This document shows, one piece after another, positions 39,471 through 62,973 of a DNA stretch of 64,000 nucleotides. A model generated the notes under the pieces. The model saw only the letters and a program-made list of their open reading frames with translations. It was not told the DNA's origin and searched no databases. The stretch is from Branchinecta lynchi. Taxonomy: Eukaryota > Arthropoda > Branchiopoda > Anostraca > Branchinectidae. Positions within the stretch are counted from its first letter, which is position 1. Each line of letters begins with the position of its first letter. The DNA is taken from NCBI GenBank assembly GCA_023053575.1, contig JAKZAP010000007.1:26003464-26067463 (forward strand). Direction: 5' to 3'. The translations under genes were made by a program, and so were the position numbers.

Positions 39471-39481
39471 AGGATTAGTGA

Positions 39482-39996
39482 ATAAATATTCTTTGAGCCC
39501 AAGCTGACTTTGAAACATTTATTCAAACAATGTTTACACGGATACGTCAGCTCTGATTTTTCATCAGCGATATTTCGGCCCTTCTTGGCAAGGGTCCTCG
39601 TCAGGCTGTCAATCTTCTTATTCAACTTCGGGGAAGGAAACAAACCTGTAACAAATAACTGAAGCTTCGGTAGAAGCTTCAGTTATTTGTTACAGGTTTG
39701 TTTCCTTCCCCGAAGTTTGTAATCTTCGTATAGTGTAATCTTCGGTCGATCCGTCGGCACATCGGGTGTTTTTATATGTTTGTAATCAATTGTAAACTTC
39801 GGGGAAGGAAACAAACCTGTAACAAATAACTGAAGCTTCGGTAGAAGCTTCAGTTATTTGTTACAGGTTTGTTTCCTTCCCCGAAGTTGAATAAGAAGAT
39901 TGACAGCCTGACGAGGACCCTTGCCAAGAAGGGCCGAAATATCGCTGATGAAAAATCAGAGCTGACGTATCCGTGTAAACATTGTTTTGAATAAAT
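39482..39996 (-). mobile_element. Foldback-family element between two capsid genes
   Basis: Flanked by the exact 9-bp repeat GATTAGTGA (39,473-39,481; 39,997-40,005). On the minus strand it starts ATTTATTCAAAACAATG and ends CTCAAAGAATATTTAT, like the copies at 18,436 and 29,045. The interior is an almost perfect palindrome that itself contains two shorter palindromes (CTTCGGGGAAGGAAACAAAC..AACTGAAGCTTCGGTAGAAG). It falls in the 3' spacer of the minor capsid gene and does not break a frame. Confidence 0.9.
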
Positions 39997-40026
39997 GATT
40001 AGTGAAATAAAATTATTTACCTATAA

Positions 40027-40383
40027 ATGTTGATTAATAATAAGCGATTACTTTATAAAAGGCAGTATGGAAGTGGAATCGGTAGTGTATTCAAAAACAT
40101 TGTTAATTCCCAGTTATTTCAAACGTCAGCAAAACAAATAAAAGATGGGGCTATGTCAATGTATAATAATATTATTAAACCGAGATTTGAGTTGTTGAAA
40201 AACAGAGCAATAGAATATGGGAAAGATCTGATCGATGTAAACAAGAAGGAACTCATTGATGTAATTGGAAACAAAAAATCGATGAAGGATCTTCTCGGTA
40301 CAAATAAAAGGATTTTAAACCAAAGAAGTCAGGACTTGATCAAAACGTTAATGACTGGCAATGGATTAAAGATTCTGAAATAA
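40027..40383 (+). CDS. Small pVI-like capsid-associated Polinton protein
   Basis: 118 codons from ATG in CCTATAAATG. It has a basic N-terminus with a glycine-rich motif KRQYGSGIGSVFKNI, then amphipathic helices, and ends in TLMTGNGLKILK. A short protein with RQxGSGxGxxF next to the major capsid gene is standard in Polintons and has been compared with adenovirus pVI-like cement or membrane-active proteins. That comparison is family knowledge and only weakly testable here. It is intact. Confidence 0.65.
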   Translation: MLINNKRLLYKRQYGSGIGSVFKNIVNSQLFQTSAKQIKDGAMSMYNNIIKPRFELLKNRAIEYGKDLIDVNKKELIDVIGNKKSMKDLLGTNKRILNQRSQDLIKTLMTGNGLKILK

Positions 40384-40413
40384 GTTTTATTTAATAATTT
40401 CTTTCTTATATAA

Positions 40414-41751
40414 ATGGCAGTAAATAAAGTTATCAGTCCGCAATGGAACATTTTTGATGAACCGCTTGTGGATGAAACAGTGGTTAAATATGAATTTAAA
40501 GAAATTCGAGAAACAGATGTGAATGTATCTAATAAATCAGAGTTTGAATTCGTAACAAAGAAATTAGATTCTTGGTTTTATCCAAGTGAAAGTTATCTTG
40601 ATGTCAGTGTAAGAATAGTAAACGAAGATGGGACTCCTATAGCTGCAACCGATGTTGCTACTTTAACGAATAATGGATTTAATTTATTCAGTACCGCTGA
40701 GTATGTGATAAACGATGAATCGGTTGAAAAAATTAATCATGTTGGTATTACAACTACCGTTACAAAGTTGATTGAATACTCTGATGATTATTCCAGAAGT
40801 GCTGCAAGAAATCATTTCTGGTATAAAGATTATAATCAAGGGAAAGAAATCAATCCTGTAATTGCTTCGTTTACTGCAGGGGCTGGAACAGTCAGGTTGA
40901 CCAATAATGATAATTATGATAAAGGATTTGAAAAAAGATATAACAGAACAAAGAGCAGTAAATTAGTAAATATGTATTTACCATTATCAGAATTGTTTGG
41001 ATTTTTGAAAGGAAACAAACGATTCTTCAGAGGTGCATCGCATAAAATATTTCTAAGAAGAAATGATGATAACAACATGATTATAAGAAACGAAAATACT
41101 AATCTGAAAGTGGTCATCGAGTATTTATCCTGGAAGATCCCTATTGTAGCTCCTAGTATTGAAATGATGAGTAACTTAGAAAAGGGTCTTGCTAAGGACA
41201 GAAAGCATAATCTGATGTGGGAAGCATGTAATACTTATAAAAGCGATGTTAGTCAAAATAAGGAACACACTTGGAAAGTTATATCTGAGAGAAACAATCC
41301 AACAAAAGTAGTTGTGATGCTACAGAAAAATGAAAAGCATAACAATCAATTAATGAATAATATGGTGTTTGATCATATGAATTTAACAGACATAGAACTT
41401 AGAATTAATGGGGATAAATATCCTGAAGAACCACTTAAATGTGATTTTAGCGATGATAAATGTAAATACTCAAATCTTTACAATAGGTTCATACATTTGG
41501 GTTATAAACAATTAGCATTTGATACTGGTAGTGTTGTTAGTATAGAAGAATTTAAAGAAGTATACCCACTATTCTGTTTCGATGTTTCTAAACACGAGTC
41601 AAATATTTATAATGGAACAACTGCTGATATTGAAATAAGTTTAACGTTGAAAGATAATCAACCCGTACCATATAATGTTTACTGTGTTATATATTATGAA
41701 AGAAAAGCTACATTAGATATTATCAATAAAAATATGTATGTGAGTTTGTGA
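40414..41751 (+). CDS. MCP: Major capsid protein (double jelly roll)
   Basis: 445 codons, intact, ATG in TATATAAATGG. It builds the icosahedral shell. Recognisable blocks in order: YPSESYLDVSVRIVNEDGTP (~52), TLTNNGFNLFSTAEYVIND (~88), YSDDYSRSAARNHFWYKD (~123), YNRTKSSKLVNMYLPLSELF (~175), FFRGASHKIFLRR (~203), and in the second roll VVIEYLSWKIPIVAPSIE (~231) and MNLTDIELRINGDKYPEEPL (~322). Order and length suit Polinton/adintovirus hexon-like proteins. It is the best preserved gene of the element. Confidence 0.92.
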   Translation: MAVNKVISPQWNIFDEPLVDETVVKYEFKEIRETDVNVSNKSEFEFVTKKLDSWFYPSESYLDVSVRIVNEDGTPIAATDVATLTNNGFNLFSTAEYVINDESVEKINHVGITTTVTKLIEYSDDYSRSAARNHFWYKDYNQGKEINPVIASFTAGAGTVRLTNNDNYDKGFEKRYNRTKSSKLVNMYLPLSELFGFLKGNKRFFRGASHKIFLRRNDDNNMIIRNENTNLKVVIEYLSWKIPIVAPSIEMMSNLEKGLAKDRKHNLMWEACNTYKSDVSQNKEHTWKVISERNNPTKVVVMLQKNEKHNNQLMNNMVFDHMNLTDIELRINGDKYPEEPLKCDFSDDKCKYSNLYNRFIHLGYKQLAFDTGSVVSIEEFKEVYPLFCFDVSKHESNIYNGTTADIEISLTLKDNQPVPYNVYCVIYYERKATLDIINKNMYVSL

Positions 41752-41755
41752 GTCT

Positions 41756-42321
41756 GGATTTTTATTTAATAAAATCATCCACTAATAAATGGAGTCCACA
41801 AAGGAAGTCTTGAATACAATCAGAATGAATAAATACAATGAGACAATCAGGAAAGAAGAACTAGTTCTAGGATTGAAATATACTATCGTTAAAATGAGAA
41901 TTGCTAAGACAAAATATGGTGATAAGTTGGTTGTAGTCATTAATCATAATGACAAACCATGTGATTTGTTTATAACACAGAAATATAATGCCATTGCTAA
42001 CGAATTACTTTCAAAGAGAAATCTGGTTTTGCAGCCTATTGTACGCGAAAACAAGAACAAAGAAACATATGTGGATTTAGAACTGTTTACTCAGTAATAT
42101 TTGAAAAAAAAAGAAGTAGTGTATATTGTAGTATTTTATATGTAGTAAAGGGTAATATTTCTCATTTCTTGTATCCTTTATTTTGGAAGTAAGAAAATAA
42201 AAATGTTCTTAAAAAGGGGGATAATTTGGTAAAAAGGATGTTAAAATTTAAGAAATTGATGTGAAAATAGGGTTTTGAAATTGGGGGGAGGGTGGAGTGG
42301 GAGCGGCGATCTTATACTACT
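41756..42321. repeat. Polinton right terminal inverted repeat
   Basis: The inverse of the left repeat, uninterrupted, ending GGCGATCTTATACTACT. It includes the gene at 41,789-42,097 and then ~220 bp of AT-rich sequence with a G-rich stretch (GGGGGGAGGGTGGAGTGGGAG) near the tip. Confidence 0.9.
41789..42097 (+). CDS. Small terminal Polinton gene inside the TIR
   Basis: 102 codons from ATG in CTAATAAATGG. It is mostly beta-strand-like sequence with charged turns: TIVKMRIAKTKYGDKLVV, INHNDKPCDLFITQKYN and VLQPIVRENKNKETYVDL. It shows no catalytic motif or membrane segment. Because it lies wholly within the terminal repeat, the element originally carried two facing-out copies; the left one is broken by an insertion. 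A terminal or DNA-binding protein is conceivable from the location but nothing in the sequence proves it. Confidence 0.7.
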   Translation: MESTKEVLNTIRMNKYNETIRKEELVLGLKYTIVKMRIAKTKYGDKLVVVINHNDKPCDLFITQKYNAIANELLSKRNLVLQPIVRENKNKETYVDLELFTQ

Positions 42322-42896
42322 TCTGTGAAAGGGAGGTTCTTTTCGGCAACATGATATCTACTTGGAAGTGATTCTAAAAAAAGGGTTGACCTATCCGAAT
42401 TCCCAAGAATGTCACAATTCAGGTCACCGGCTAAAACCCAATTCACGTTTTTTGAAGACAGACTTTCGAGCAGAGACTTTAAACTGAAGCAACATTTCGC
42501 GAAAGAAGTGAACGATGCTATAGACCGTCGATCGCACGGAAAGTAAACGTTTATGAATGCAGTATTGTCACACTGGATCGCTAGGATGTTATTATCACTA
42601 TGAATCACAGAAGGCTTTGCTGGGGAACTGAGGAAAATTGCGAGACCACCGGATGGGCGGCCTTTAGTTTTCTTGGCCTCACGCGAAAAAAAATGGTGGG
42701 CAGGGGAGCGCTTTAGGCTAGACACGTTTGCTTTAGTCAAAAGATGTTCTTGCAAGAAGAGAACATCATGGGCTAATAGTTCATTAATCAACAAATCTTT
42801 GTCTTTGGTGCCGTTAATGTTAAGCGAAGCAAAACTTAAAGTAGTGGCCTGAATCATTTTGGAGCGGAGGCCAGGGCGCGCTTGATCACTTGGCAT
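42322..42896 (-). pseudogene. LINE ORF2, 5' part: AP endonuclease
   Basis: ATG at 42,896, overlapping the end of ORF1 by ~43 bp. The start of an APE-type endonuclease is clear: LSFASLNINGTKDKD (strand 1 with catalytic Asn), LLAHDVLFLQEHLL (Glu), and WVLAGDLNCD (Asp/Asn). The frame is cut at the Polinton edge right after LPFT and continues in the right phase at 28,600 with IHNRGCSKSNLDHV, which completes the SxLDHV endonuclease motif. This proves that the two halves were one gene. Confidence 0.88.
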
Positions 42897-43976
42897 TTCA
42901 TGCTATAAGAAACATGAGCTTGGCCGCAGTTGGCGCATTTCGGTGCCTCTGAGCAAGGACTGTCTTTAGTATTGGAGTGGCATCCGGAACATTTAGAGCA
43001 CTTCATCTCATCTGGGGCACTTGGGCACTGAGCTACCGAATGATGGATACTTTGGCATCTAAGACACCGTCTAGGCAGTGCTTTATATTCCGATATTCTG
43101 AATGACTCGTAACCCACTCGGAGACCTATAGCAAGGGCGGATTTCAGTGCAGCGCAATCCAGGAACTCTAAGCGGAATGTATGAGAAGAGCCGATCTGGG
43201 TCGCCTCTACAAGACCGGGAATGGTGGAGACGAGTACGCTGCTGGAAACACTATCGGGAAGTCCCCTGATGACTCCTAGCGGTTTGCGGTCAATAACTTT
43301 TGCAACAATGTTCGGATAGCTCGCTACGGCAGAGGCGGCGAGTGAGTCGGCAGATACTTTATCCCGCGTGACAACAACCCATCTTTTCCGTAATGGATCG
43401 GATTTTCCCGATAGAATTCCACCATGGCCGGGGAAAGAATCGAGCTTTTCCTTGCGAGAAACGGGGTCTCTTAGTTCTGGAGGTGGATTTTTAAGGACGA
43501 CCGCGTACGAGGGTTTGCGATCGGTAGCCTTACTATCCGGAACCAAAGGAATATTTATAGACGTTGAGGGGCCATTGGAGTTCGCAAGCGATTTCAGCTG
43601 ATCGAGGCACTGGTTAACTTTAGCGGTAAGGATGGAGTAAGATGACGCCGGAATACTAGGGACTTCCGAGGGAGATTTGATCACAAAGTCTGGAGTGTCG
43701 ATACCTTCTGCACAGCAACGAGTGAGGGCTGCAAATAATGTCCGATAGTGAACTACTCTTGGCATTGGGGCCTATACGACGAGGCATTAGTTCGTCCGGG
43801 AAACATTTACCGTATAAAAGTTTCTTAGAGTCAAGAACGTCCGCAGACTCGAAAAACTCACTGGCGTACGTCACAATCGACGGATGGTCCAACACCTCAT
43901 CGAGATTGTGCTGAACGAAATTCAAAACTGGGCAGTAATAAAGCGTACCGTTATTCCAATTGTCCATGATAAGCAA
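42854..43976 (-). pseudogene. LINE ORF1 (gag-like, three zinc knuckles), frameshifted
   Basis: RNA-binding ORF1 of the LINE. A helical N-terminal part (frame 43,976-43,7xx) shifts frame near 43,750 into 43,765-42,854. The C-terminus holds CLRCQSIHHSVAQC (CX2CX4HX4C), a CSKCSGCH knuckle and CANCGQAHVSYSMKC (CX2CX3HX6C), the knuckle set of jockey/I-type LINE ORF1 proteins. A central RRM-like region is possible (RKPLGVIRGLPDSVSS). It overlaps ORF2 slightly. Confidence 0.8.
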
Positions 43977-44285: not shown

Positions 44286-45430
44286 CATGTGTTGTTTTTG
44301 CGCATCTTGGGGAATTAAGGGAGACACCCGACTGAATGGTTTTCGTTTTATTTACCGACACAGGTCTCGTAAAAACCTTCTGCGTAAGACCTCCACAGTT
44401 GATTTTCCACTGAAGATTTCTTGAGGAGTGCTAAATATCGGCGAATAAACTGCTCCCTGTTCAGTGGTCAGCCTGTCCTCCGTTACCTGACACATCGACA
44501 GACATCCTCACAGTTATCGGTTGACAGGGCACAGATGATCTATTAACTCGACAACTAAGGCCTAGGACGATGGGGTCAATACAAAAGAGGCAAGGCACGG
44601 CATAGTGCAGGAGGCACGAGTACTAAAAATTGACACGAAAACCAAAAGAGCCCTTTCAAGCTTTTACGTGCCTTCGTCTAGGCTCTGTGTTTTTTTTTAT
44701 GGCGTAAGCTGAAATAAAACTGATTGATTGATTGATTTAGAGTGAGAGGCAGGAACAATGTTCTAATGTGCCTTCGTTTAGGCTCTGGAGTTACGAACTC
44801 TCGCTAACTTGTCTACTTCTACTACTTCCTAAACTCTTTTTATTACTCGTGCCTCTTGCGCCCCGCCGTGTAATTTCTGCTTTGCCCCCCACGGTCAGTA
44901 ACCCCATTACCTTTCTATACTTCCAGATTGTACGTTCGCTTTGGTGTGTGCGGTAGCCTGTTGTGCCGCTGTGAGACTTCCTTTCGACTCTCTTTTTCCT
45001 AACCCACCACGAAAAAATGTTAGTCCCTGGATGGTTACGAAGGTTGGATTCGGGCAGAAGAACATGCAGTTGTCACCGCTCGATGGTGAGGGATTTTTCA
45101 GCATTATGTTTCCAATTATTTTAGAAACAAAAAGCCTAAAGTTAGCAGCATGCCGAAGATGAAACCGACTAAGCTTGTCTCCACGTTTAAATGCTAATGC
45201 CAATACAACCTACTTTCGTAATTGCATTCATTATTTTGAACCTCTGTTCGCGTATCATGCTATTGGTGCGTAAAATCGGTTCATTAAGTTCTGCCGAGTT
45301 TTTGCAGTAGTCAATGGACCTCCGAAAAGGCTTCAAGTATCCAAAGCCAAAGCCATGGAAAAGAGCCTAATTTTGCCGTATTCCAAAAGTTTTGAAATTG
45401 CAAAACAAACAGTAAATAGTACGAGGTGTA
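44286..45430. other. No gene; retroposon tail with TGAT repeat
   Basis: At 44,711-44,738 AAATAAAACTGATTGATTGATTG resembles the 3' tail of a LINE or SINE. A ~22-bp block (GTGCCTTCGT.TAGGCTCTG) is repeated at 44,668 and 44,768. Nothing else is supportable. Confidence 0.4.
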
Positions 45431-46998
45431 CTTTTTGGGATCCCAAAACGTAAGTGTAGGGATACGTATGACATCGCAAAAGTTGTCCGTCTGTTCGTCC
45501 GTCCGTCTGTTCGTCTGTCCGTCCGTCTGTCAGCACGATAACTCTCGAAGGGAATGAGATATTTTGATGAAACTAAACAACAAATAAACGACAAATAATT
45601 CGCCCGGAATCTGGCAAAAAGTTGGTTAAAAGTAAAAGTTTTATTTGAAGTTGACCACGATGGTGAAAACCATTTCCTCGCCGGACAATTAGTTCGTCCG
45701 GAATCCGGCAAAAACCGGAAAGTTGGTTAAAAGTAAAAGTTTATCTGAATTTTATTAGATGTTTTATTTAGGGGTAAGAAGACATGCTGAACGCGATGAT
45801 GAAAACCATTTTCTTGCCGGACATGTCGTCCGTCCGGAATCCGGCAAAAAACGGAAAGATAGTTAAAATTAAAAGTTTTATTTGAAGTTGATTAGATGAC
45901 AGATTTAGGAGTAAGAAGGCATGCTTAAAGCATTGTCCTAATAGGTGTAATAAGGTTTATTACCGCGTATAAGACTTATTACAGATTCCTCTTTTCCTCG
46001 GAGCGTGCTGTAATAAGGTGAATAAGGAGAATAGACTAGCGTTCTATTCTGGCTTATGCAGGGCCAATCAGATCGCTTGGTTGGTTCCGCCAGCGGGCCG
46101 AGGAGAGGCGCAGCGTCGTCAGGGTTGCAAAGAAAGCACAACAGTTCTACTTTGTTGGAAGCTAAAGAAACAACTTTTCTTAACAAAAACACGTTTTTGT
46201 TCTATTACGACGGCTTTTCGTCAATTAGAGGATCAATGCTGTCCATCCGTTATTTTAATAGCTTTTTTACAGTATAGTTTGCGTTATATTGTACTCGTGT
46301 ACTGCAAGTAGTACCAACAACCTTTTCGGATATTTTTAGAGCTCGAAAAATTGTATTACCTTGGCAACACTGGAAGCCGCATTGATAAGAACCTCTTGGG
46401 TTGTATTTGAACAGGCGTGTGTATTAAGACGTAAACATCGCGTATAGCGCTATTCACCTTATTACACCTATTAGGACAATGCTTAAGACTTGTATGAAAA
46501 GCATTTTCTACCCGGACAAATAGTTCCCCGGAATCCGGTCAAAACCGGAAAATTCGTTAAAAGCAAAAGTTTTATCTGAAGTTGACTAGATGGCAGACTT
46601 AGGGCTAAGGAGACGCTGAGTCTGTATATGACATTCACTTTTCACCCGGACATATAATTCGTCCGGAATCCGGAAATTTTTTCGTAAGTAAAGTTTTATT
46701 TGAAGTGATATTAGATGTCCTTTATAGGGATAAGGAGATATGCTGAATTCGTTTCTGAGTTTTCTTTTCTGCTGGACAAGTAGTTCGCTCGGAATTTGGC
46801 CGAAACCGGAAATTTGGCAGAAGTGAAGCAGGAAGTTTCGGTCAGTATCGTCAAAATAGATATGCCTGATAAAGGTATATCCGAACTTGGTTTTCGCAGA
46901 TGATTAGCCTGGCGAAAACTGGATCTGGCGAAGACAAGACCCAGTTGTCAGTATCAAATACTTTATTTTTGGGATCCCATCGAAACCTTAGGTCTTGC
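45431..46998 (-). mobile_element. GGGATCCC-bounded repeat element, copy D (reversed)
   Basis: Reverse of copies A-C: it begins CTTTTTGGGATCCCAAAACG, then the (CGTC)n tract and inverted ~120-bp units with TCCGGAATCCGGCAAAAACCG, and ends GGGATCCCATCGAAACC. A 555-bp MITE at 45,929-46,483 has inserted within a unit. Confidence 0.75.
45929..46483. mobile_element. MITE with AGCATTGTCCTAATAGG ends
   Basis: The left end AGCATTGTCCTAATAGGTG and the right end CACCTATTAGGACAATGCT are exact inverses, extending to TAATAAGGT/ACCTTATTA. TAA duplications flank it (45,926-45,928; 46,484-46,486), as in Harbinger-type elements. The interior has open frames without known motifs (46,018-46,311) and no transposase. 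Confidence 0.85.
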
Positions 46999-47502
46999 TT
47001 CACAAAACGTCATGTTGCCAATTGTAACGCAGCTATTAATGGGTTCTGTTTAGTCGAAACTTTAAAAAACTTTTTTTTTGTATTATTTAGAGGCGAAGGC
47101 CTTTCTGTTACTTAGTATTAAATTTGGTTTTGGATTATATATATTTAAATGTAATTAGTATATCAAAATGTTGGAGAACATTGGCCAGTGCCTATACCAT
47201 ATAAAGGTTTTACACAAGAATCCTAACTCACAACTGTGTTGATTAGTCAATTTGATCAACAGGTTGTGCGAAGAACGGTCTTCTCTACTCCCCCCTCCCC
47301 AGACTGAGAGGCCTTCGGTTGTTTGTGCGAAGGACACAAATTATGCAGCTGTCCCTTACTATAGTAACTAATGGACCAAGTCGTGCCATGAATCTCGTCG
47401 GCCAACCAAAAATATACAGAACTAATTCTATAGTTACAAACCAACCATAACGTCACAACGAATATGTAGACATCTTTGTCATAAGCAAATGTGGAAAAGC
47501 TT
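46999..47502. other. No recognised feature
   Basis: AT-rich sequence with no supported gene or repeat. Confidence 0.4.
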
Positions 47503-50084: not shown

Positions 50085-50163
50085 GAAAGCATCTAAGAAG
50101 TCCACGGCTTCGCGAGAAAGGAGTGCTATCACGAGACATGTTATGCGTCAAGACGCAAAACCA

Positions 50164-50610
50164 ACAAGACCAAAGGTTTTGATGGGATCCCAAAATTCAA
50201 TATTTGATCCAGACAATTGGGTCTTGTCTTCGCCAGGTCCAGTCTTCACCAGACCCCCTGAACATGTTTACTACTAAAATTCAGAAACTAATTAAGGCCA
50301 AAAAGCTACTGATCTGAGAAAACCAAGATCAGATATGGATTCACCATGTGTATGTTTACCCCTATAAGTCATATCTGTTCTGAAGAAAACTTCCTGCCTT
50401 GCTCCTGCCGATTTCTTTCGGCCGAATTCCGGAACTACCTGTCCGGCAAAAAAAAGAAAGCTAAAAAAACGAACTCATCGTATCTTCTTTCCCCTACATG
50501 GAACATCTAATCAACTTCAAATTAAAATTCCCCTTATAACAAATTTTCCGGTTCCAGCCGGATCCCGGGCGAACTATATGTCCGGGTAAAGAATGATTGT
50601 CATATGAGGA
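50164..50610 (+). mobile_element. GGGATCCC-bounded repeat element, copy E, left part
   Basis: It starts ACAAGACCAAAGG..GATGGGATCCCAAAA like copies A-C, and breaks off within a unit at GGATTCAGC, where the 11.8-kb palindrome has inserted. It resumes at 62,464. Confidence 0.8.
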
Positions 50611-50639
50611 TTCAGCTATGGCATGCATTTTGGGTCAAA

Positions 50640-51060
50640 ATTGTTAAAAATGTTGCCGAGAATACTCGAAATGTCGCCGAGAATCCATGAAATGTAGCCG
50701 AGAATGCTGTTTTTGTCGCCGAGATTTTTTGTGTGTATCCGAGACTGCAACGTTTGTTGCCGAGAATGACAACTTTGTAGCCGAGATTTTCACTGAAAAA
50801 CGTGTCGCCGAGAAATACGGATATGCGTTCGAAACCAAAAATCTAGTTCCCGAGATGGAACAAAGTGTCGCCGAGATTGATAGAAATGTCGCCGAGATTT
50901 CGCGCAATGTCGCCGAGAATGCATGAGATGTCGCCGAGATTTCTTTGAAAATAACATACAAGTGAAAAAAGTGTCGCCGAGAACAAGAAAAAAGAATACA
51001 GCTTAGAACGAAAAATCTGATTTTTGAGATGGGAACAAATGTAGCCGACTTGGTGGTTGG
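50640..51060. repeat. Left subterminal array of GCCGAGAAT motifs
   Basis: About 15 occurrences of GCCGAGA(A/T)T, spaced ~20-35 bp, separated by variable AT-rich words often ending AAATGT. The mirror array is at 62,070-62,440. Open frames in both strands across the array are artefacts of this spacing. Confidence 0.85.
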
Positions 51061-51113
51061 TGAGGTCCTCCTTATTGTTCTATTTGTAAGTCCAGAACAA
51101 GTGTGATTCTTCG

Positions 51114-51266
51114 TTGCAGTACACGCTCACTACCATTGTAAGTGCTATATTTGCTATCGCACTCTTGTTGGTATTAATCTACTCAATAAACAATGTGAAC
51201 GTGAACAACAGTTGCTCAAAAGTAAGATCCACAGGAAGTTTCAAAGGAAAGGATATGGCTCAGAGG
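51114..51266 (+). CDS. Small single-pass membrane protein frame (left arm)
   Basis: The frame starts MQYTLTTIVSAIFAIALLLV, a clear transmembrane helix after four residues, followed by a Ser/Asn-rich and then basic tail (VRSTGSFKGKDMAQR). A hAT element is inserted right after the AQR codons; beyond it the pre-insertion sequence would soon meet a stop, giving ~53 residues. The right arm (61,945-61,793, minus strand) holds the same frame with one conservative I-to-V change. Conservation between arms may only reflect recent duplication, so coding status is uncertain. An upstream ATG is not visible (the frame is counted from a CAG-TAC context), so it may be an exon. Confidence 0.4.
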
Positions 51267-51779
51267 CAGGGGCGTTGCGAAAGGGGGGGGGGTACAACAT
51301 TCGGTAACTTATTCGGTATAATTGCCAGGATTCGGTAGTTACCACGAACATGAAGAGGTCGAGTGAAGAACTGGTCGCAGACAAAGGATTTCATCGATAT
51401 TCCTTACTTTTATTTGTATCCTAAAAACAAGCTCTTATCAGAAATGTCTCGAAAATTCTGCCTGCGGCGCTTTTCATAATATTCACTATTTTCCGGAAAG
51501 GTGCGTCATTTAGCTAGGTTTTATACCAGTTTTAGGGATCGCGATTTTTCAAAACCCTAAAAGCTAGAACCTGCATGGAAATAGCTGAATTTGGCAGGAA
51601 AAAATTAACTTAAAAAATCTCGCCTGCGGCGCTCACTTTATGTGATCATGGCTAGTAATGACTAGTCATACAGTAGCTGATGCTGCCGGGATGTCGCTCC
51701 ATCCGGTTTCTGGAAATTCTTAGGATCCCGGTGTTTTGGCTCTGCACCCAACTACAAAAATTCACTTGCGACGCCCCTG
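51267..51779. mobile_element. hAT-type element in the left arm
   Basis: CAGGGGCGTTGCGAAAG on the left and CACTTGCGACGCCCCTG on the right. The flanks CTCAGAGG (51,259-51,266) and CTCACAGG (51,780-51,787) form an 8-bp duplication with one mismatch. Inside are GCCGCAGGC-type blocks and ACCGAAT repeats. The same insertion, with the same mismatch, is in the right arm. Confidence 0.8.
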
Positions 51780-52222
51780 CTCACAGGTACTAAGAAAGCT
51801 AGAATAAGTATAGTCGTTGAAAGAAATATATAACTGAAACGCATTTATTTTACGGATATATCATCAAAAATGTGTTACCACCTTAAATTTTTTGATATAA
51901 TGACTTTAGCACAAAAACCTGGTTCTGGGGAGCTTGACTTTGACATGGACGACTGATTTTCTCTTTCATTTAAGTCATCCACCAATAGCCTTGTATACTG
52001 GTTAGGGCTAAGGTTCAAGCATAGCAAGTATGATAGTTTGGTTCTTGCAATAGCCTTGTCACATGGTTATGGTTCAAGTCTCCAAACATCGTTTGAATGG
52101 TAGTTTTGGTTCATCTTAAAAGGAAATGTCAGGTAAGCAGCACTTCATAGCATCTCCATGACTGGAAGTGCAAGCCCATCTCAGAACCATGCTTGTTCAT
52201 GGTTTCACATTCAAATCCAAGA

Positions 52223-52492
52223 TCAGAGCTTCTGAGAACTTAACACGTCAGCAGGGCCAGGAATTGGCTCAAGCTCACTACTTCCGAACTGTAGTTTCAA
52301 TGACTTATTAGGACTGTGATTGTTCAACTCAACTTCAGAGACAAGAAGTGGTTTATCTGATAGGTGGAAATAAACAGGAAATTTCAGTGATGCAGCTTTT
52401 CCGCCTCGAAATTCCGGCTTCCTCACGCCTACAGATCCCCAGAAGCTGAGGAATATATCCTTTGCATACACGTTCCATGTACTGATTGTCAA
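52223..52492 (-). CDS. Unknown frame LKFPVYFH, left-arm copy
   Basis: A minus-strand frame ending in a stop at 52,223 encodes LKFPVYFHLSDKPLLVSEVE and then SSELEPIPGPADVLSSQKL. The last ~55 residues are nearly the same in the right arm (60,640-60,810, plus strand), while the sequence before them differs because of frame changes. The common part probably marks the true coding segment, perhaps a C-terminal exon. No family recognised. Confidence 0.4.
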   Translation of the reverse strand: MTISTWNVYAKDIFLSFWGSVGVRKPEFRGGKAASLKFPVYFHLSDKPLLVSEVELNNHSPNKSLKLQFGSSELEPIPGPADVLSSQKL

Positions 52493-52519
52493 TTAATATA
52501 CTTTTCCAAATTTTGGCTA

Positions 52520-52738
52520 TCACCCCTTGACTTCATATTTCAGGAAGTGCTCAATACTGTTCAAAACTGGAGCTTGAGTACTAGTCAGCTGCTCCTGTTG
52601 GCTTTGGGCACGAATGATCACTGCATGGGCTTTGCCTATTCCTTCTTGCGGACCTTTAATAGCCGATTTCCCACACTGACTTCCATTATCGACAAGTGCA
52701 TCTAACACTTTGGAATCCATCTTCGAATTTCCGATCAT
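52520..52738 (-). CDS. Unknown frame MIGNSKMD, left-arm copy
   Basis: 73 codons: MIGNSKMDSKVLDALVDNGS, then GIGKAHAVIIRAQSQQEQL and a stop. The right-arm copy (60,255-60,476) keeps the first 53 residues, then diverges because of a ~32-bp insertion there. A different frame on the same strand is also open in both arms (YDRKFEDGF..VRC), so the coding frame is uncertain. No family recognised. Confidence 0.35.
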   Translation of the reverse strand: MIGNSKMDSKVLDALVDNGSQCGKSAIKGPQEGIGKAHAVIIRAQSQQEQLTSTQAPVLNSIEHFLKYEVKG

Positions 52739-52937
52739 AATGGCCGAGGCAGTTATGTTTCTTGATCAATGACTGTGCCCTGGAAAGGAGATCAAGTTGG
52801 GCACACATAGCACTCATCAGAAGAAACAATGGTATTCTCAAGTGTTAGGTTAATTGTGAATGAATTTGTGGTAAAACAATTAAAGATTCTTCCTTAAATA
52901 TCTGATTTTGTGAATTTCTTCTCTGAAAATCAGATAT

Positions 52938-53500
52938 TTAAGGAAGAATCTTTAATTCTTTTTCCACAAACTCATTTGCCAACTTGAGAGGCTTGAGCCT
53001 GAAAAGGACCCTTGTAGCTGACTTATCGGTTTGCACCGTACAAGATGATTCGCAGTCAGCATGGGCTGGAGGACTATCTCCAACCTTCTTTATACTCTTG
53101 ATGACTATCTCTCTATGCCGATTCAGAATCTCTGGGTACCTGCGGAAGAAATGAAGAAATGGTGCCAAAGCTGCGCTGACTCAGGATCTGAGTCGTTGAG
53201 TTTGAGTCGTTACGGACACGTTTACGGTACTCTTTCTTCCTGAGAATCAGTGGCGTGTTCTGAACTTAGTCATATAGAGTATTATCCCACAACTAAAAGT
53301 CTCCTGCTTTGGAAAGTGAACTGTTTGCTAATTCAGTCTCAGGCAAGGAGTTTTTAGCAAACTCTTTGCTTAAAAGACAATCTAGATCTGTCATGGAAGA
53401 AAAGCAAAACGGCTCCATAGCGTGGTGCCAGAGAGCCAATGTCTGCAGATACTTACATACAGTACTCAGAAAAAGAGCCATTGACAGTCAAAGGTATGTC
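52938..53500 (-). pseudogene. RYPEIL/CKYLQT frames, left-arm copy
   Basis: Two minus-strand frames: 53,481-53,293 (KYLQTLALWHHAMEPFCFSS) and 53,168-52,938 (RYPEILNRHREIVIKSIKKV, then PPAHADCESSCTVQT). Both have inverted counterparts in the right arm, where the first is frameshifted by an extra T near 59,555. A distant relative of the second frame is at 10,851-11,045. Together they look like exons of a degraded element gene; no known domain is visible. Confidence 0.4.
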
Positions 53501-53879
53501 AGTCAACTGTGGCTCAAACTATACTAAAACATGAGCTACTTGAACCACTGAAAGAACTTTAGAGAGGCTGCAATGGCCTTGAACTTCTGACTTTCTTTGG
53601 TATATGATGTCATCCTTAGGGAAACGTCAATACCTGACTAATCTAGCAAATCAAGTTGACACTGAAGGAAGGCCCATGAATAATACAGCACTGCACCCAT
53701 TTAGACACTCGCACTTCCTGAATCCTGTACCGCCTATTTCTTAGTATTTTTCTAGATTATTTTGTCTGAATGATCTTATGACTCTAGGCAGAGGTCTCGT
53801 TTCATGGAAATCTAGAGGGGCAAAAGTCACTGTACAGGACTGGGACGCAGGTGCCCTTCCAAGGGTTTCGGCATGTTGA

Positions 53880-54984
53880 ACAAGACCAAAGGTTTCGATG
53901 GGGTCCCAAAAATTCAATATCTGATCCAGACAACTGCGTCTTGTCTTAGCCAGACTCCTTGAACATTTTTACAATTAAAATTCAGAAACAGATTAAGGCC
54001 AAATAGCTACTCCTCTGGGAAAACCAAGTTCAGATATGGATTCAGCATGTGTGTTTACCCTATGACTCATATCTGTTTTGACGAAAACTTCCTGCCACTT
54101 CTGCCAATTTCCTGGTTTCGGCCGAACTCCAGAACTACTTGTCCGGGGAAAAAAAGAAAGCTCAAAAACGAACTCAGGGTATCTTCTTTCCCCAATAATG
54201 AACATCTAATCAACTTCAAATAAAAATTTAACTTATAACAAATTTTCCGACTCCAGCCGGATTCCGGTCGAACTAAATTTCCGGGTAAAATATGATTGTC
54301 AAACACGAATTCAGCATCTCTTCTTACCCTTAAATCGGTTATCTAATCAACTAGAAATAAAACTTAAGCTTCTAACAATTTTCCGGTTTTGGCCGGATTC
54401 GGGGGGAACTACATGTCAAGGTAGAAAAATTTTTCACATAAGTGTTCAGCATGTCTTCTTGCCCTAAATCAAACATCTAATCAACTGAAAATAAAACTTT
54501 TAATTTTAATAAACTTTCCGGTTTGGGCCGGATTCCGGGCGAACTACTAGTCCGTCGAAAAAATGGTTTTCACCATCGTCCTCAGCATGTCTTTCTACCT
54601 CTAAATCGAACATTTAATCAACTTCAAATAACATTTTTACTTTTAACAAACTTTCCGGTTTTGGATTCCGGGCGAACTACTTGTCCGATGACAAAATGAT
54701 TTTCACCATCATGTTCAGCATGTCTTCTTACCCCATAATCGACTATCAAATTATCTGTTTCAAAATATTTTGTTTGCCCCTTAATTTGAACCCCCACCCC
54801 TAAATGTAGGGCTACAAAGCCCATCTACGAACTTGACTGGTCCGACGACCCAACAAATCCTCACACCAAGTTTCATCAAAATATCTCATTCCCTTCGAGA
54901 TTTATCGAGCTTACAGATGGACAGACGGACAACTTTTGCGATGTCATAGGTAACCCTCCACTTACGTTTTGGGATCCCAAAAAG
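53880..54984 (+). mobile_element. GGGATCCC-bounded repeat element, copy F
   Basis: Same ends and ~120-bp units as copies A-E, lying within the left arm of the palindrome and absent from the right arm. It therefore inserted after the arms were duplicated, or was lost from the right arm. Confidence 0.75.
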
Positions 54985-55446
54985 TATCTCAAATATAAGA
55001 CTGGCAGATATTTTGCTAACCTGGAGGATTATACTGGTTAGAAACAATAGACAAGAAACAACAGGGCCAAACATATGCGCAAAACTGTGTGAATTGCAAG
55101 AAAAAGTAACAACAATTCTTACAAGTTTAAGGCAAAGGCTTATAGGTCATCCATAATAATTGGAATTTGCTACGAGTGAAGCCCCCACAGTAGTTTGTTA
55201 TAACTGATGACAATCAACAGCTTGAAAATTTTCGCCCGCTGCAAATTCAGGCTAAATTTTCTGAATGTTATTTTGTTTTGCCTGGGGTGCTCAAGAATCC
55301 CACGAAAGCCAGTGAGCTGATTCCCCCCCCCCCCCCCCACAATGATGCCTCTGATTCTAGGATTCTGAATCTCTGATTCAAGCAACTCTGGGCCTGAGTC
55401 TAACAATCCCCTGAGCCTAATCTCTCAGCCTCATAAACTTTGCTGT

Positions 55447-55622
55447 AGCAGGCACACTGAAAAACAACAACATAGGTTCGGATAGTGGTTAGAGAGACCA
55501 TAGGTTACCTATCCTGCATTGTAAATGAAATCATAGCAGGCACACTGAAAAACAACAACATAGGTCGGATAGTGGTTGAAGAGAACATAGGTTACCTATC
55601 CTGCATTGTAAATGATATCTCG
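55447..55622. repeat. 88-bp tandem duplication in the left arm
   Basis: AGCAGGCACACTGAAAAACA through CCTGCATTGTAAATGA occurs at 55,447 and 55,535. The right arm has the block only once (59,115-59,200), so the duplication is specific to this arm. Confidence 0.8.
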
Positions 55623-55767
55623 TTTTATCCATGAAATTCAATCCAAGCCTTTGGGAGACTCTGTGACCCCTCAGTGTGCACACCTCTCGTGGATTTTGAA
55701 TCCTGGCAATACCTGAAACCTGGAGGTACTGAAATCCCTAACGATAAAAGAACAAAGGCTAGCAAAA

Positions 55768-56705
55768 TTCAAGAGAAATCTCAAAAGAAGCCAGACAAAA
55801 ATTAATGACATTTTCTTTCTTTATCTGTTCTTAATCTTGACACTAAAAGCATCATCTTCAATGTAAAAGATTATTTTTCTTTTCATTTTCGGTGGTCTAA
55901 TTATATTGTCAATAGGATGAACACAATCACAAGTCCCAGCAGACGATTCTAATATAAATTTCGCTTGTCTTTTGAAAAAAACTTTGAAGTTCATATGTAA
56001 ATTTGGTAGTGGGACTGGTGGGCTCCGGGTCCACCCTGGGGTCTACCCGAAAATCCTTCTCCCCCTGGCAACAAAAATCCGTCCGCCCTCCCTGAATGCA
56101 AATATATAGGAAACTAAATATATTCTGACAGCGAGTTAATGTAAACTCTATACAGACACACGAGTTAATGTAAACAGGTGATGGTGGCCTTCCCTATCTA
56201 TGAAATACTTTTCATATAAATAAATTGGGGGAGGGTTTGGTCGGGGTGGTTCGGTACCCAAGGTTTTTTCGTACCGCCGGGGGGGGGGTCGCTGGGGCGA
56301 CTGTCCGTATAGAGTTTACATTAACTCGATGTCAGAATATATTTAGTTTCCTATATATTTGCATTCAGGGAGGGCGGACGGATTTTTGTTGCCAGGGGGG
56401 AGGAGGATTTTCGGGTAGACCCCTTTGCGGACCCGGATCCCACCAGTCCCACTACCCAATTTAAATATGAACTTTAAAGTTTTTTCAAAAGATAAGGGAA
56501 ATTTATATTGGAATCGTCTGCTGGGACTTGTGACATTCATCCCATTGACAATATAATTAGACCACCGAAAATGAAAAGAAAAATAATCTTTTACATTGAA
56601 GATTACGCTTTTAGTGTCAAGAATAAGAAGAGATAAAGAAAGAAAATGTCATTACTTTTTTTCTGACTTCTTTTGAGATTTCTCCTGGATTTCTCTTGAA
56701 TTTTG
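55768..56705. mobile_element. Hairpin element inside the left arm
   Basis: GCAAAATTCAAGAGAAATC on the left and GATTTCTCTTGAATTTTGC-type sequence on the right are inverse, as are AAAGATTATTTTTCTTTTCA and its mirror, with arms of ~430 bp meeting near 56,200. The right arm of the large palindrome passes straight from CTAGCAAAATTC to the following CTAGTTGG sequence, so this is a later insertion. Confidence 0.75.
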
Positions 56706-56784
56706 CGGGACACCTCTAGTTGGAAAATATATGAAATTGTCGTATGAATATACAAAATCTAAATATCCAATCAGACATATACAC

Positions 56785-58885
56785 CTCGCGGTCACTAGCC
56801 AACTAGTTGGCAACTGTAAAAAATTTCCTATAGGATAAGCCGGCGTTGCCGACTAGTTGGCTCCGAGAAAAATTCGTATAGGAATTTTGTTTGTGTTCCA
56901 ACTAGTCCGCCACTGTAAAAAGTTTCGTATAGGAAATCCCGCGGTGCCGACTAGTTGGCTACGAGACAAATTCGTATAGGAATTCTGTTTGTGTTCCAAC
57001 TAGTCCGCCCCTGTAAAAAAACTTCGTATAGGAAATCCCGCGTTGCCGACTAGTTGGCTACGAGAGAAATCCGTATAGGATTTTTGTTTGTGTTCCAACT
57101 AGTCCGCCACTGTAAAAGGTTTCGTATAGGAAATCCCGCGGTGCCGACTAGTTGGCTACGAGACAAATTCGTATAGGAATTATGTTTGTGTTCCAACTAG
57201 TCCGCCCCTGTAAAAAACTTCGTGTAGGAAATCCCGCGTTGCCGACTAGTTGGCTACGAGAGAAATCCGTATAGGATTTTTGTTTGTGTTCCAACTAGTC
57301 CGCCACTGTAAGAAATTTTGTATAGGAAATCCCTCGTTGCCGACTAGTTGGCTCCGAGAAAAATTCGTATAGGAATTTTTTTTGTGTTCCAACTTGTCCG
57401 CCACTGTAAAAAGTTTCGTATAGGAAATCCCGCGGTGCCGACTAGTTGGCTACGAGACAAATTCGTATAGGAATTCTGTTTGTGTTCCAACTAGTCCGCC
57501 CCTGTAAAAAACTTCGTATAGGAAATCCCGCGTTGCCGACTAGTTGGCTACGAGAAAAATCCGTATAGGATTTTTGTTATACGAGTGTGAAATTTATCAA
57601 ACTTATTGGATATAAAGATACACGATTTCTCGTCGTAGCCAACTAGTCGGCAACCACGGTTTTCCTACGCGAAATTTTTTACAATGGCGGACTAGTTGGA
57701 ACTCAAACAAAAACATATACGAATTTTTCTCGTAGCCAACTAGTCGGCAACGCGTGATTTCGTATACGAAACTTCTTACAGTGGTGAACTAGTTGGAACA
57801 CGAACAAAATTCCTATACGAATTTTTCTCGTAGCTAACTAGTCGGCAACGCGGGATTTCCTCTACGAAATTTCTTGGGGCGGACTAGTTGGAACACAAAC
57901 ACAATTCCTATACGAATTTTTCTCGTAGCCAACTAGTTGGCAACGCGGGATTTCCTATACGAAATTTCTTACAGTGGCGGACTAGTTGGAACACAAACAA
58001 ATCCTATACCAATTTTACTCGTAGCCAACTAGTCGGCAACGCGGAATTTCCTATACGAAATTTCTTTCAGGGGCGAACTAGTTGGAACACAAACAAAATT
58101 CCTACACGCATTTTTCTTGTAGCCAACTACTCGGCAACGCGGGATTTCGTATACGAAATTTCTTACAGTGGCGGACTAGTTGGAACACAAACAACAATCC
58201 TATACCAATTTTACTCGTAGCCAACTAGTCGGAAACGCGGGATTTCCTGTACGAAATTTCTTTAAGGGGCGGACTTGTTGGAACACAAACACAATTCCTA
58301 TACGCATTTTTCTTGTAGCCAACTAGTCGGCAACGCGGGATTTCCTATACAAAATTTCTTACAGTTGCGGACTAGTTGGAACACAAACAAAATTCCTATA
58401 CGAATTTTTCTCGGAGCCAACTAGTCGGCAACGCGGGATTTCCTATACGAAATTTCTACAGTGGCGGACTAGTTGGAACACAAACAAAAATCCTATACGG
58501 ATTTCTCTCGTAGCCAACTAGTTGGCAACGCGGGATTTCCTATACGAAGTTTTTTTTACAGGGGCGGACTAGTTGGAACACAAACAGAATTCCTATACGA
58601 ATTTGTCTCGTAGCCAACTAGTCGGCACCGCGGGATTTCCTATACAAAACTTTTTACAGTTGCGGACTAGTTGGAACACAAACAAAATTCCTATACGAAT
58701 TTTTCTCGGAGCCAACTAGTCGGCAACGCGGGATTTCCTATACGAAATTTCTTACAGTGGCGGACTAGTTGGAACACAATCAAAATTCCTATACGAATTT
58801 TTCTCGGTGCCAACTAGTCGGCAACGCCGGCTTTTCCTATACGAATTTTATACAGTAGCCAACTAGTTGGCTTGTGACCACGAGG
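56785..58885. repeat. Central inverted array of ~98-bp units
   Basis: About 8 units on the left and 13 on the right, in opposite orientation, meeting near 57,590. Each unit contains two near-palindromic words, GCCAACTAGTCGGC and GCGGACTAGTTGG, and TTCCTATACGAA. The array is bounded by TATACACCTCGCGGTCAC and GTGACCACGAGGTGTATA. Open frames here come from the repeat. Confidence 0.9.
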
Positions 58886-59790
58886 TGTATATGTATGATT
58901 GGATATTCAGATTCTGTATATTTATACGACAATTTCTAATAATTTCCAACTAGAGTATGTCCGAATTTTGCTAGCCTTTGTTCTTACGTCGTTAGGGATT
59001 TCAGTACCTCCAGGTTTCAGGTATTGCCAGGATTCAAATCCACGAAAGGTGTGCACACTGAGGGGTCTCAGAGTCTTCCAAAGGCTTGAATTGAATTTCA
59101 TGGATAAAACGAGATGCCATTTACAATGCAGGGTAGGTAACCTGACCGCCTACTGTCCGAACCTATGTTGTTGTTTTTCAGTGTGTCTGCTACAAAGTTT
59201 ATGAGGCTGAGAGATTAGGCTCAGGGGATTGTTAGACTGAGGCCCAGAGTTGCTTGAATCAGAGATTCAGAATCCTAGGATCAGAGGCATCATTTGGGGG
59301 GGGGATCAGCCGACTGGATTAGTGAGGTATTTACGTTTCCCGAAGGAGGACATCATATACCAAAGGAAAGTCAGAAGTTCAAGGCCATTGCAGCCTCTCT
59401 AAAGTTCTTTCAGTGGTTCAAGTAGCTCATGTTTTAGTATAGTTTGAGTCGGAATTGACTGAAATAGCTTTGACTGTCAATGGCTCTTTTTCTGAGATTT
59501 GTATGTAAGTATCTGCAGACATTGGCTCTCCGTCACCAGGCTATGGAGCCGTTTTTGCTTTTCTTCCATGACAGATCTAGATTGTCTTTGAAGCAAAGAG
59601 TTTGCTACAAACTCCTTGCCTGAGACTGAATTAGCAAACAGTTCACTTTCCAAAGCAGGAGAACTTTTAGTTGTGGGATAATACTCTATATGACTAAGTT
59701 CAGAACATGCCAGTGATTCTCAGGAAGAAGGAGTAAACGTGTCGGTAACGACTCAAACTCAACAACTGAAATCCTGAGTCAGCGCCAGCT

Positions 59791-60021
59791 TTGGCAGCAT
59801 TTTTACATTTCTTCTGCAGGTATCCGGAGATTCTGAATCAGCATGGAGAGATAGTCATCAAGATTATAAAGAACGTTGGAGATAGTCCTCCAGCCCAAGC
59901 TGACTGCGAATCATCTTGTACGGTGCAAACGATAAGTCAGCTACAGTTTCATAAGAGCGATACTTCGGCCCTTCTTTGCAAGGGTCTTTTTCAGGTGCAA
60001 GCCTGTCAAGCTGGCAAATGA
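59791..60021 (+). pseudogene. RYPEIL frame, right-arm copy
   Basis: Reads FLHFFCRYPEILNQHGEIVI, then PPAQADCESSCTVQT. After TVQT it enters a block with GATACTTCGGCCCTTCTTTGCAAGG, the hallmark of the 9-bp-TSD foldback family, so the two families share sequence. It is the inverted counterpart of 53,168-52,938. Confidence 0.4.
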
Positions 60022-60254
60022 ATTTGTGGAAAAAGAATTAAAGATTCTTCCTTAAATATCTGTTTTTCAGAGAAGAAATTCACAAAATCAGATATTTAAG
60101 GAAGAATCTTTAATTGTTTTACCACACATTCATTCACAATCAACCCAACACTTGAGAATAACATTGTTTCTTCTGATGAGTGCTATGTGTGCCCAACTTG
60201 ATCTCCTTTCCAGGGCACAGTCATTGATCAAGAAACATAACTGCCTCGGCCATT

Positions 60255-60476
60255 ATGATCGGAAATTCGAAGATGGATTCCGAAGTGTTAGATGCAGTTG
60301 TCGGTAATGGAAGTCAGTGTGGGAAATCGGCTATTAAAGGTCCGCAAGAAGGAATAGGCAAAGCCCATGCAGTGATCATTCGTGCCCAAAGCCAGCAGGA
60401 GCAGCTGACTAGTCAGAAGAGATCACTACAGACGGAGTGGGTTAAAAACTCAAGCTCCAGTTTTGGACAGTATTGA
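60255..60476 (+). CDS. Unknown frame MIGNSKMD, right-arm copy
   Basis: Inverse of 52,738-52,520. Of the first 53 residues three differ (K/E, L/V, D/G). A ~32-bp extra stretch beginning CAGAAGAGATCACTAC changes the C-terminus. Coding status is uncertain. Confidence 0.35.
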   Translation: MIGNSKMDSEVLDAVVGNGSQCGKSAIKGPQEGIGKAHAVIIRAQSQQEQLTSQKRSLQTEWVKNSSSSFGQY

Positions 60477-60549
60477 GCACTTCCTGAAATATGAAGTCAA
60501 GGGGTGATAGCCAAAGTTTGGAAAAAGTATATTAATTGATAATCAGTAC

Positions 60550-60810
60550 ATGGAGCGTGTATGCAAAGGATATATTCCTCAGCTTCTGGGGATCTGTAGT
60601 AGTGAGGAAGCCGGAATTTCGAGGTGGAAAAGCGGCATCACCGGACTGAAATTTCCTGTTTATTTCCACGTATCAGATAAACCACTTCTTGTCTCTGAAG
60701 TTGAGTTGAACAGTCACAGTCCTAATAAGTCATTGAAACTACAGTTCGGAAGTAGTGAGCTTGAGCCAATCCCTGGCCCTGCTGACGTGTTAAGTTCTCA
60801 GAAGCTCTGA
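60550..60810 (+). CDS. Unknown frame LKFPVYFH, right-arm copy
   Basis: The last ~55 codons match the left-arm frame almost exactly (LKFPVYFHVSDKPLLVSEVE, stop after SSQKL). The upstream part is read in a different frame from the left copy, so one or both are broken there. Confidence 0.4.
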   Translation: MERVCKGYIPQLLGICSSEEAGISRWKSGITGLKFPVYFHVSDKPLLVSEVELNSHSPNKSLKLQFGSSELEPIPGPADVLSSQKL

Positions 60811-61260
60811 TCTTGGATTTGAATGTGAAACCATGAACAAGCATGGTTCTGAGATGGGCTTGCACTTCCAGTCATGGAGATGCTATGAACTGCTGCTTAC
60901 CTGACATTTCCTTTTAAGATGAACCAAAACTACCATACAAACGATGTTTGGAGACTTGAACCTTAACCATAACCATGTGATAAGGCTATTGCAAGAACCA
61001 AACTATCATACTTGCTATGCTTGAACGTTAGCCCTAACCAGTATACAAGGGTATTGGTGGATGACTTAAATGAAAGAGAAAATCAGTCGTCCATGTCAAA
61101 GTCAAGCTCCCTAGAACCAGGTTTTTGTGCTAAAGTCATTATTTCAAAAATTTTAAGGTGGTAACACTTTTTTTGATGATATATCCGTAAAATAAATGCG
61201 TTTCAGTTATATATTTCTTTCAACAACTATACTTATTCTAGCTTTCTTAGCACCTGTGAG

Positions 61261-61792
61261 CAGGGCCATCGCAAGTGAATTTTTGTAGTTGGGTGCAGAG
61301 CCAAAACACCAGGATCCTAAGAATTTCCAGAAACCGGATGGAGCGACATCCCGGCAGCAGCAGCTACTGTATGACTAGTCATTACTAGCAATGATCACAT
61401 AAAGTTAGCGCCGCCGGCGAGATTTTTTAAGCTCGTTTGTTCCTGCCAAATTCAGCTATTTCCATGCAGGTTCTAGCTTTTAGGGTTTCGAAAAATCGCG
61501 ATCCCTAAAACTGGTTTAAAACCTAGCTAAATGACGCACCTTTCTGGAAAATAGTGAATATTATGAAAAGTGCCGCAGGCAGAATTTTCGAGACATTTCT
61601 GATAAGAGCTTGTTTTTAGGATACAAATAAAAGTAAGGAATATCGATGAAATCATAGATCAGTCCTTTTGTCTGTGACCAGTTCTTCACTCGACCTCTTC
61701 ATGTTCGTGGTAACTACCGAATCCTGGCAATTATACCGAATAAGTTACCGAATGTTGCACCCCCCCCCCCCCCCCCTTTCGCAACGCCCCTG
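61261..61792. mobile_element. hAT-type element in the right arm
   Basis: Mirror of 51,267-51,779: CAGGGCCATCGCAAGTG on one side and GCAACGCCCCTG on the other, flanked by CCTGTGAG (61,253-61,260) and CCTCTGAG (61,793-61,800). The mismatch in the duplication is the same as in the left arm. A C17 run replaces the G-run. Confidence 0.8.
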
Positions 61793-61945
61793 CCTCTGAG
61801 CCATATCCTTTCCTTTGAAACTTCCTGTGGATCTTACTTTTGAGCAACTGTTGTTCACATTCACATTGTTTATTGAGTAGACTAATACCAACAAGAGTGC
61901 GATAGCAAATATAGCACTTACAATGGTAGTGAGCGTGTACTGCAA
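61793..61945 (-). CDS. Small single-pass membrane protein frame (right arm)
   Basis: Inverse of 51,114-51,266, with the same hydrophobic helix and basic tail and one I-to-V change. See the left copy for the uncertainty about coding and start. Confidence 0.4.
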
Positions 61946-62069
61946 CGAAGAATCACACTTGTTCCGGACTTACAAATAGAACAATAAGGAGGACCTCACC
62001 AACCACTAAGTCGGCTACATTTGTTCCCATCTCAAAAATCAGATTTTTCGTTCTAAGCTGTATTTTTTT

Positions 62070-62460
62070 TTCCAATTCTCGGCGACACTTTTTTCACTTG
62101 TATGTTATTTTCAAAGAAATCTCGGCGACATTTCATGCATTCTCGGCGACATTACGCGAAATCTCGGCGACATTTCTAGCAATTTCGGTGACATTTCTAG
62201 CAATCTCGGCGACACTTTGTTCCATCTCGGGAACTAGATTTTTGGTTTCGAACGCATATCCGTATTTCTCGGCGACACGTTTTTCAGTGAAAATCTCGGC
62301 TACAAAGTTGTCATTCTCGGCAACAAACATTGCAGTCTCGGATACACACAAAAAATCTCGGCGACAAAAACAGCATTTTCGGCTACATTTCATGGATTCT
62401 CGGCGACATTTCGAGTATTCTCGGCAACATTTTTAACAATTTTGACCCAAAATGCATGCC
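62070..62460. repeat. Right subterminal array of (A/T)TCTCGGCGAC motifs
   Basis: Inverse of 50,620-51,060. One ~20-bp unit (ATTTCTAGCAAT(T/C)TCGG) is present here in an extra copy near 62,175-62,210, so unit number differs slightly between arms. Confidence 0.85.
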
Positions 62461-62463
62461 ATA

Positions 62464-62973
62464 TTCAGCATATCTTCTTATCCCTAAACCGGGTATCTAA
62501 TCAACTACAAATAAAACTTTTAATTTTAACAAATTTTCCGGTTTTGTCCGGAAAATCGGATGAACTACTTGTCCGGGTAGAAAATAATTTTCACATAAGT
62601 GTCCAGCATTTCTTCTTACCCCTAAAGCAAACATCTAATAAACATCAAATAAAACTTTTACTTTTAACAAACTTTCCGACTTTTGCCGGGTTCCGGATGA
62701 ACTATTGTCCGGCGAGAAAATAGTTTTCATATTCGTGTTGAGAATGTCCTCTTACCCCATAATCGACAATCACATTAGCTGTTTAAAAATATTGTGTTTG
62801 CCCCTTAATTTGACTCCCCCCCCCCAACCCTAAATGTAGGGCTACAGAGCCCATCTACGAACTTGACCCACAGAATCCTCACACGAAGTATCATCAAATT
62901 ATTGCATTCCCTTTGAGAGTTATCGTGCTCACAGACGGACGGACAACTTTTGCGATGTCATAGGTATCCCTCC
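62464..62973 (+). mobile_element. GGGATCCC-bounded repeat element, copy E, right part
   Basis: It continues copy E: TTCAGCATATCTTCTTATCC, two to three ~120-bp units, the C-rich stretch, GACGGACGGACAACTTTTGC and TCATAGGTATCCCTCC, where a CAGGGGCG element interrupts it before the final GGGATCCC. Confidence 0.8.

Follow-up and report, generated by a model that had tools for sequence, protein, structure and literature searches.

The stretch of DNA analysed here (hereafter the window) comprises 64,000 nucleotides of Branchinecta lynchi contig JAKZAP010000007.1 (forward strand, positions 26,003,464 to 26,067,463) and contains, at 50617-62463, an 11.8-kb foldback element with two long inverted arms. 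Its terminal sequence TATGGCATGCATTTTGGGTC occurs exactly at 50617-50636 on the plus strand and at 62444-62463 on the minus strand, with no occurrence in shuffled controls; both termini read TATGG..CCATA, and the hexamer TTCAGC abuts the element on either side. When the flanks are fused at a single TTCAGC, they restore a unit of the surrounding host repeat, aligning through the junction at 81% to the repeat copy at 53869 and at 80% to the copy at 20297; the 53869 alignment, the one given in full, is ungapped at the empty-site junction. These results confirm three proposals of an earlier model-generated note on this sequence: that the ends are inverse copies, that they are flanked by an exact 6-bp duplication, and that the outside sequence rejoins to a normal host-repeat unit. 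The host repeat consists of 137-bp tandem units, with a GACG run in some copies, and recalls the 'pearl' elements of bivalves. The features of the locus are as follows.

50611..50616, unstranded: target-site duplication TTCAGC, left, repeated on the right at 62464-62469
50617..53643, plus strand: left arm, outer part, starting TATGGCATGCATTTTGGGTC (exact-end search, self-alignment)
50648..50941, plus strand: subterminal 21-bp tandem repeats of the GTCGCCGAGAAT type, with a mirror copy at 62118-62432
53644..55329, unstranded: one-arm insert (1.69 kb), old, containing the host-repeat copy 53869-54984 (comparison of 13 copies)
55330..56157, plus strand: left arm, inner part (self-alignment)
56158..56302, unstranded: loop, the unpaired centre, limits approximate (self-alignment)
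56303..56706, minus strand: right arm, innermost part, closing with the left GAATTTTGC of the guest (self-alignment)
56707..58962, unstranded: nested guest, palindromic, with 98-bp repeats; duplication GAATTTTGC at 56698-56706 and 58963-58971
58963..62463, minus strand: right arm, remainder, finishing GACCCAAAATGCATGCCATA (end search, self-alignment)
62464..62469, unstranded: target-site duplication TTCAGC, right (flanking-sequence match)
Element termini: family end sequence, also cited below as TATGGCATGC and TATGGCATGCATTTTGGGTCA
20297-24262, 45426-47007, 50163-50616, 53869-54984 and 62464-62973: host-repeat copies (self-comparison, tandem repeats)

Each arm is about 3.9 kb long, and the outer parts (50617-53643 against 62463-59317) are 92.6% identical by BLAST with gaps included and 96.6% identical over 3021 ungapped sites. 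Once the guest is removed, the outer palindrome is continuous down to the loop near 56158-56302, and the element measures 9.58 kb, close to the length of its relatives. The earlier description of an 11.8-kb palindromic element stands as regards the inverted ends and long arms and fails as regards a single palindrome, which the 2.26-kb guest and the one-sided insert interrupt. The guest has its own 9-bp duplication (GAATTTTGC) and is built from two opposed arrays of a 98-bp repeat; it is present in the window copy alone among 13 complete copies compared, a set not sampled at random, from which the rearranged copy L018 (5.97 kb) was left out. The unbroken guest site was matched in 12/12 of the other complete copies, in L026 at one of two mirrored places. 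The insert shows the same left junction in 13/13 complete copies, with the opposite arm uninterrupted in all of them, and its right junction was matched by script in 11/13; because the same one-arm junction recurs throughout, the insert must have entered before the family spread. Pfam coverage of the element comprised the outer left arm in six frames, where nothing exceeded the cut-off (best match PQ-loop, E-value 0.047), and one frame of about 100 codons in each arm, neither of which gave a match.

A genome-wide search for the ends, suggested in the earlier note, was run on the 575.7-Mb assembly (216 contigs) and recovered 494 family ends at up to 2 mismatches (248 forward, 246 reverse), against 1 + 1 for a reversed-pattern control. 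The 100 of these ends that were listed are all exact and lie on C1 through part of C6. They include 27 inverted pairs (54 ends) spaced 9.2-15.4 kb and 7 inverted pairs (14 ends) spaced 0.38-0.49 kb; the other 32 are unpaired among the listed ends. Of the 12 complete relatives, one, which bears an additional insert, is 12.0 kb long; the other 11 measure 9.2-10.0 kb. Twenty large copies were read at both flanks: the exact duplication is 6 bp in 14, 7 bp in 4 (L013, L019/L020, L026, L027) and absent in 2 (L018 and the pair L048/L049). Many copies, with a short duplication in 18/20, bear out the earlier view of one mobile unit and of a non-autonomous giant foldback element. The miniatures (0.38-0.49 kb) retain the arm end over up to ~190 bp, for the most part at ~91% identity, and for this reason the outer end is likely to be what the transposase needs; in seven of them the duplication was 7 bp in 4 and 6 bp in 2, with no exact one in the last. 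Across 18 copies or part-copies, no frame exceeds 184 codons; where two over-long copies (15.4 and 14.1 kb) were read internally for a transposase, the longest frame reached 154 codons. An exact search for the family end found 0 stretches in viral contigs; its two exact matches in prokaryote genome contigs, both Faecalibacterium, were taken as chance.

We interpret the window element as most probably a non-autonomous member of the IS3EU/GingerRoot group of DNA transposons, with foldback structure, that would depend on an integrase-type DDE transposase encoded elsewhere. IS3EU elements are described as having TA..TA ends and usually 6-bp duplications (PMC10045372), and fungal IS3EU families as having TAYGG..CCRTA ends with 6 bp (PMC12730594). 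The TATGG..CCATA termini fit this pattern, the 6-bp duplication is found in 14/20 copies, and the inverted repeats exceed 30 bp, as in IS3EU. Unlike the IS3EU elements so described, the present family is a gene-less full palindrome of 9.6 kb, shows a minority of 7-bp duplications, and has arms that evolve in concert; our literature search, which covered its result lists in part, returned no IS3EU foldback. The suggestion of a new superfamily is not upheld: the ends and duplication length agree with those described for IS3EU, and the same genome has integrase-core genes lying between similar ends.

These genes were recovered with the integrase core PF24764 (rva_4), a putative marker of IS3EU-type transposases; it gave 34 matches in the Branchinecta lynchi genome and none in 14 control genomes. 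In the integrase-core exons rva_4 lies above its cut-off, and HTH_23 and rve lie below theirs. Two loci (L060 and L061) carry copies of one PF24764 gene, 98-99.5% alike, inside elements beginning TATGAAGGGGTAAATCGGGTCAAAA, and a search with this end at up to 3 mismatches found 17 forward and 17 reverse matches, against 0 and 0 in the control. Two inverted TATGAAGGGG pairs enclose PF24764 integrase-core genes in separate exons, 28.3 kb apart at C5:210506-238831 and 30.6 kb apart at C14:9488207-9518858, each with an exact 6-bp duplication and TATG..CATA ends; such lengths seem large for transposons of this kind. For a third gene copy, on C22, the matches listed include no partner end within 11 Mb. 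Nine TATGAAGGGG pairs were read at both flanks, and the exact 6-bp duplication is present in the 2 gene-bearing pairs and in 4 others.

Searching with the first exon of this gene gave 3 exact and 7 weak matches. Beside three of the weak ones (E-values 0.10, 0.10 and 0.28), neighbouring copies are 97-98% alike from TATGGAGGTCCAAAATGGGAC onward, their end type being TATGGAGGTCCAAAATGGGAC / TATGGAGG / TATGGAGGTCC; a PF24764 match follows 3-5 kb further on, on the same strand, in 2/3 of the TATGGAGGTCCAAAATGGGAC copies, with none listed for the third. Of the seven stretches beside weak matches, 3 have the TATGGAGG start in common, and no end was obtained for the other 4. All three end types, including the family's own TATGGCATGCATTTTGGGTCA, share TATG and, from position 16 or 17, GGGWCA.

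Several observations weigh against the IS3EU assignment. No element combining the identical family end (TATGGCATGC) with a transposase gene was found among the ends listed, and inverted pairs among the first 100 of 494 and 100 of 143 ends listed lie ~9-15 kb or ~0.4-0.5 kb apart. Nine of 10 integrase-core loci, read 1.5 kb to each side, are without anything like the family end; a match beside the remaining locus, L053 (17 bases, 4 mismatches), was taken as chance. Beside the weak first-exon matches, the family end was found in 0/7 stretches at up to 6 mismatches in 20. The 7-bp duplications, in 4/18 foldbacks that have a duplication and 4/7 miniatures, depart from the usual IS3EU length, and an exact duplication is missing in 2/20 foldbacks and in 3/9 of the TATGAAGGGG pairs read (C94, L077, L078). 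Finally, equating PF24764 with IS3EU rests on ends and duplication length in this genome rather than on a named IS3EU protein.

We regard it as unlikely that the family derives instead from another DDE superfamily (a foldback of hAT, P/Galileo-like or Mutator-like type) and arrived at TATGG ends by convergence. Long-armed foldbacks with inner repeats are known, among them the P-type Galileo (PMC3573991) and FB4, thought to be Mutator-like (PMC8277862), and the Drosophila Foldback and Galileo elements share with the present family long inverted arms, inner tandem repeats, many gene-less copies and unstable arm length. The 7-bp duplications in 4/20 copies would suit Galileo's 7-bp sites; the duplications here are mostly 6 bp, however, and Galileo is described with a P-type (THAP) transposase and arms of up to ~1.26 kb, as against ~3.9 kb here (PMC3573991). 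For FB4, duplications of 9-10 bp are described (PMC8277862), whereas those of the present family are 6-7 bp, with 6 bp in 14/20 copies, and a Foldback/Mutator-like origin was dropped on this difference. No transposase was found inside family copies, and hAT and THAP genes were not searched for. Taken together with integrase-core elements bearing similar ends, the end motif favours IS3EU over the other DDE superfamilies. Dada elements, considered for their 6-7 bp duplications, are described as lacking terminal inverted repeats and inserting in small RNA genes (PMC3706591); they were set aside given the inverted repeats present here and their small-RNA-gene targets. No Rfam match was obtained in the window at gathering thresholds, which places the window copy outside known small RNA genes.

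That the element is what remains of a Polinton/Maverick stripped down to its terminal repeats is highly improbable, and the comparison with Polintons drawn in the earlier note fails. The 6-bp duplication class (14/20 copies) and the long terminal repeats would agree with it, and a Polinton lies in the same window; the TATGG.. ends are nevertheless unlike the AGTAGTATAAG ends of that Polinton, the duplications vary between 6 and 7 bp, and the PolB, integrase, ATPase and capsid genes of Polintons were not seen in the element, no Polinton gene appearing among frames of at least 90 codons or when the outer left arm was scanned with Pfam in six frames. We give still less credence to a large palindrome arising from mis-assembly or from chromosome sequence duplicated in inverse orientation. 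One copy, L018, does hold an inverted duplication that takes in its flank, but 18/20 copies have a short duplication of their own and the window copy has an empty-site match. An artefact of inverted haplotypes in the assembly is likewise unlikely, given that the structure recurs in copies that sit at separate sites and differ in their duplications.

For the IS3EU-type foldback, we infer a cut-and-paste route driven by a transposase of the IS3EU group: an integrase-type DDE transposase from elsewhere in the genome would bind the ends (TATGG.. and the 21-bp subterminal repeats), excise the element and paste it in, joining it to target strands staggered by 6, less often 7, bp. The long arms are probably kept alike by arm-to-arm copying after the family had formed, presumably through a hairpin or break-induced repair route. 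Separate evolution of the arms since the insert entered would require all insert-marked arms to group together. In a tree built from 26 arm ends of 13 elements (2.3 kb), grouping follows subfamily and not side, and a constraint that unites the 13 marked arms is rejected (log-likelihood lower by 202.6; approximately unbiased test p 2.2e-5). The marked/unmarked label changes at least 5 times on this tree, and the subfamily label 3 times, the minimum for four groups, a count that is not independent of the tree since subfamilies were defined from pairwise identities of the same sequences. Two odd copies add to this: L028 has ~720 bp of the insert also in its opposite arm, and in L018 the far side has given way to an inverted copy, 100% identical, of the element's first 1508 bp together with 913 bp of flank. 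Arm-to-arm copying, by whichever repair route, would explain the subfamily grouping and both copies; L018 could alternatively be an assembly fault. On these sequence comparisons, the tree and the two copies point to homogenisation, with the arms evolving in concert. As a separate observation, L018 and L078, copies from two different end families, have flanks that are inverted copies of each other.

To our knowledge, the persistence of such long palindromes is poorly understood. We tentatively raise the idea, itself rather doubtful, that the full palindrome is a self-templating design in which each arm repairs damage in the other arm or end and the element thereby stays mobile. If so, guests and captured sequence such as the 1.69-kb insert would be carried along without loss of mobility, the element would resemble Y-chromosome palindromes within a cut-and-paste transposon, and it would give rise to new inverted duplications of the kind seen in L018; inversions are a known consequence of foldback elements. 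As one genome holds many near-complete copies, an arm-marking insert and relatives with a transposase gene, arm-to-arm gene conversion and its by-products become directly measurable. Should the IS3EU assignment hold, IS3EU would come to include gene-less 9.6-kb palindromes as well as 28-31-kb relatives that carry a gene.

Elsewhere in the window, the Polinton occupies 28601-42321, with frames matching an A32-like ATPase, an rve integrase and a double-jelly-roll capsid; its frames at 30873-34932 were read by eye as a DNA polymerase B split in two, where Pfam gives only SAP and endonuclease VII. The Polinton's terminal repeats are 98.7% alike with AGTAGTATAAG ends, its flanks (TATGTG/TCTGTG) differ by one base, and short palindromic repeats lie within it at 29044-29314 and 39513-40000. 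It appears, again by eye, to interrupt a non-LTR (long terminal repeat) retrotransposon on the minus strand (26475-28656 and 42312-43771). A single frame at 48242-48913 matches polysaccharide lyase 14, the matched solved structures being alginate lyases and VAL-1.

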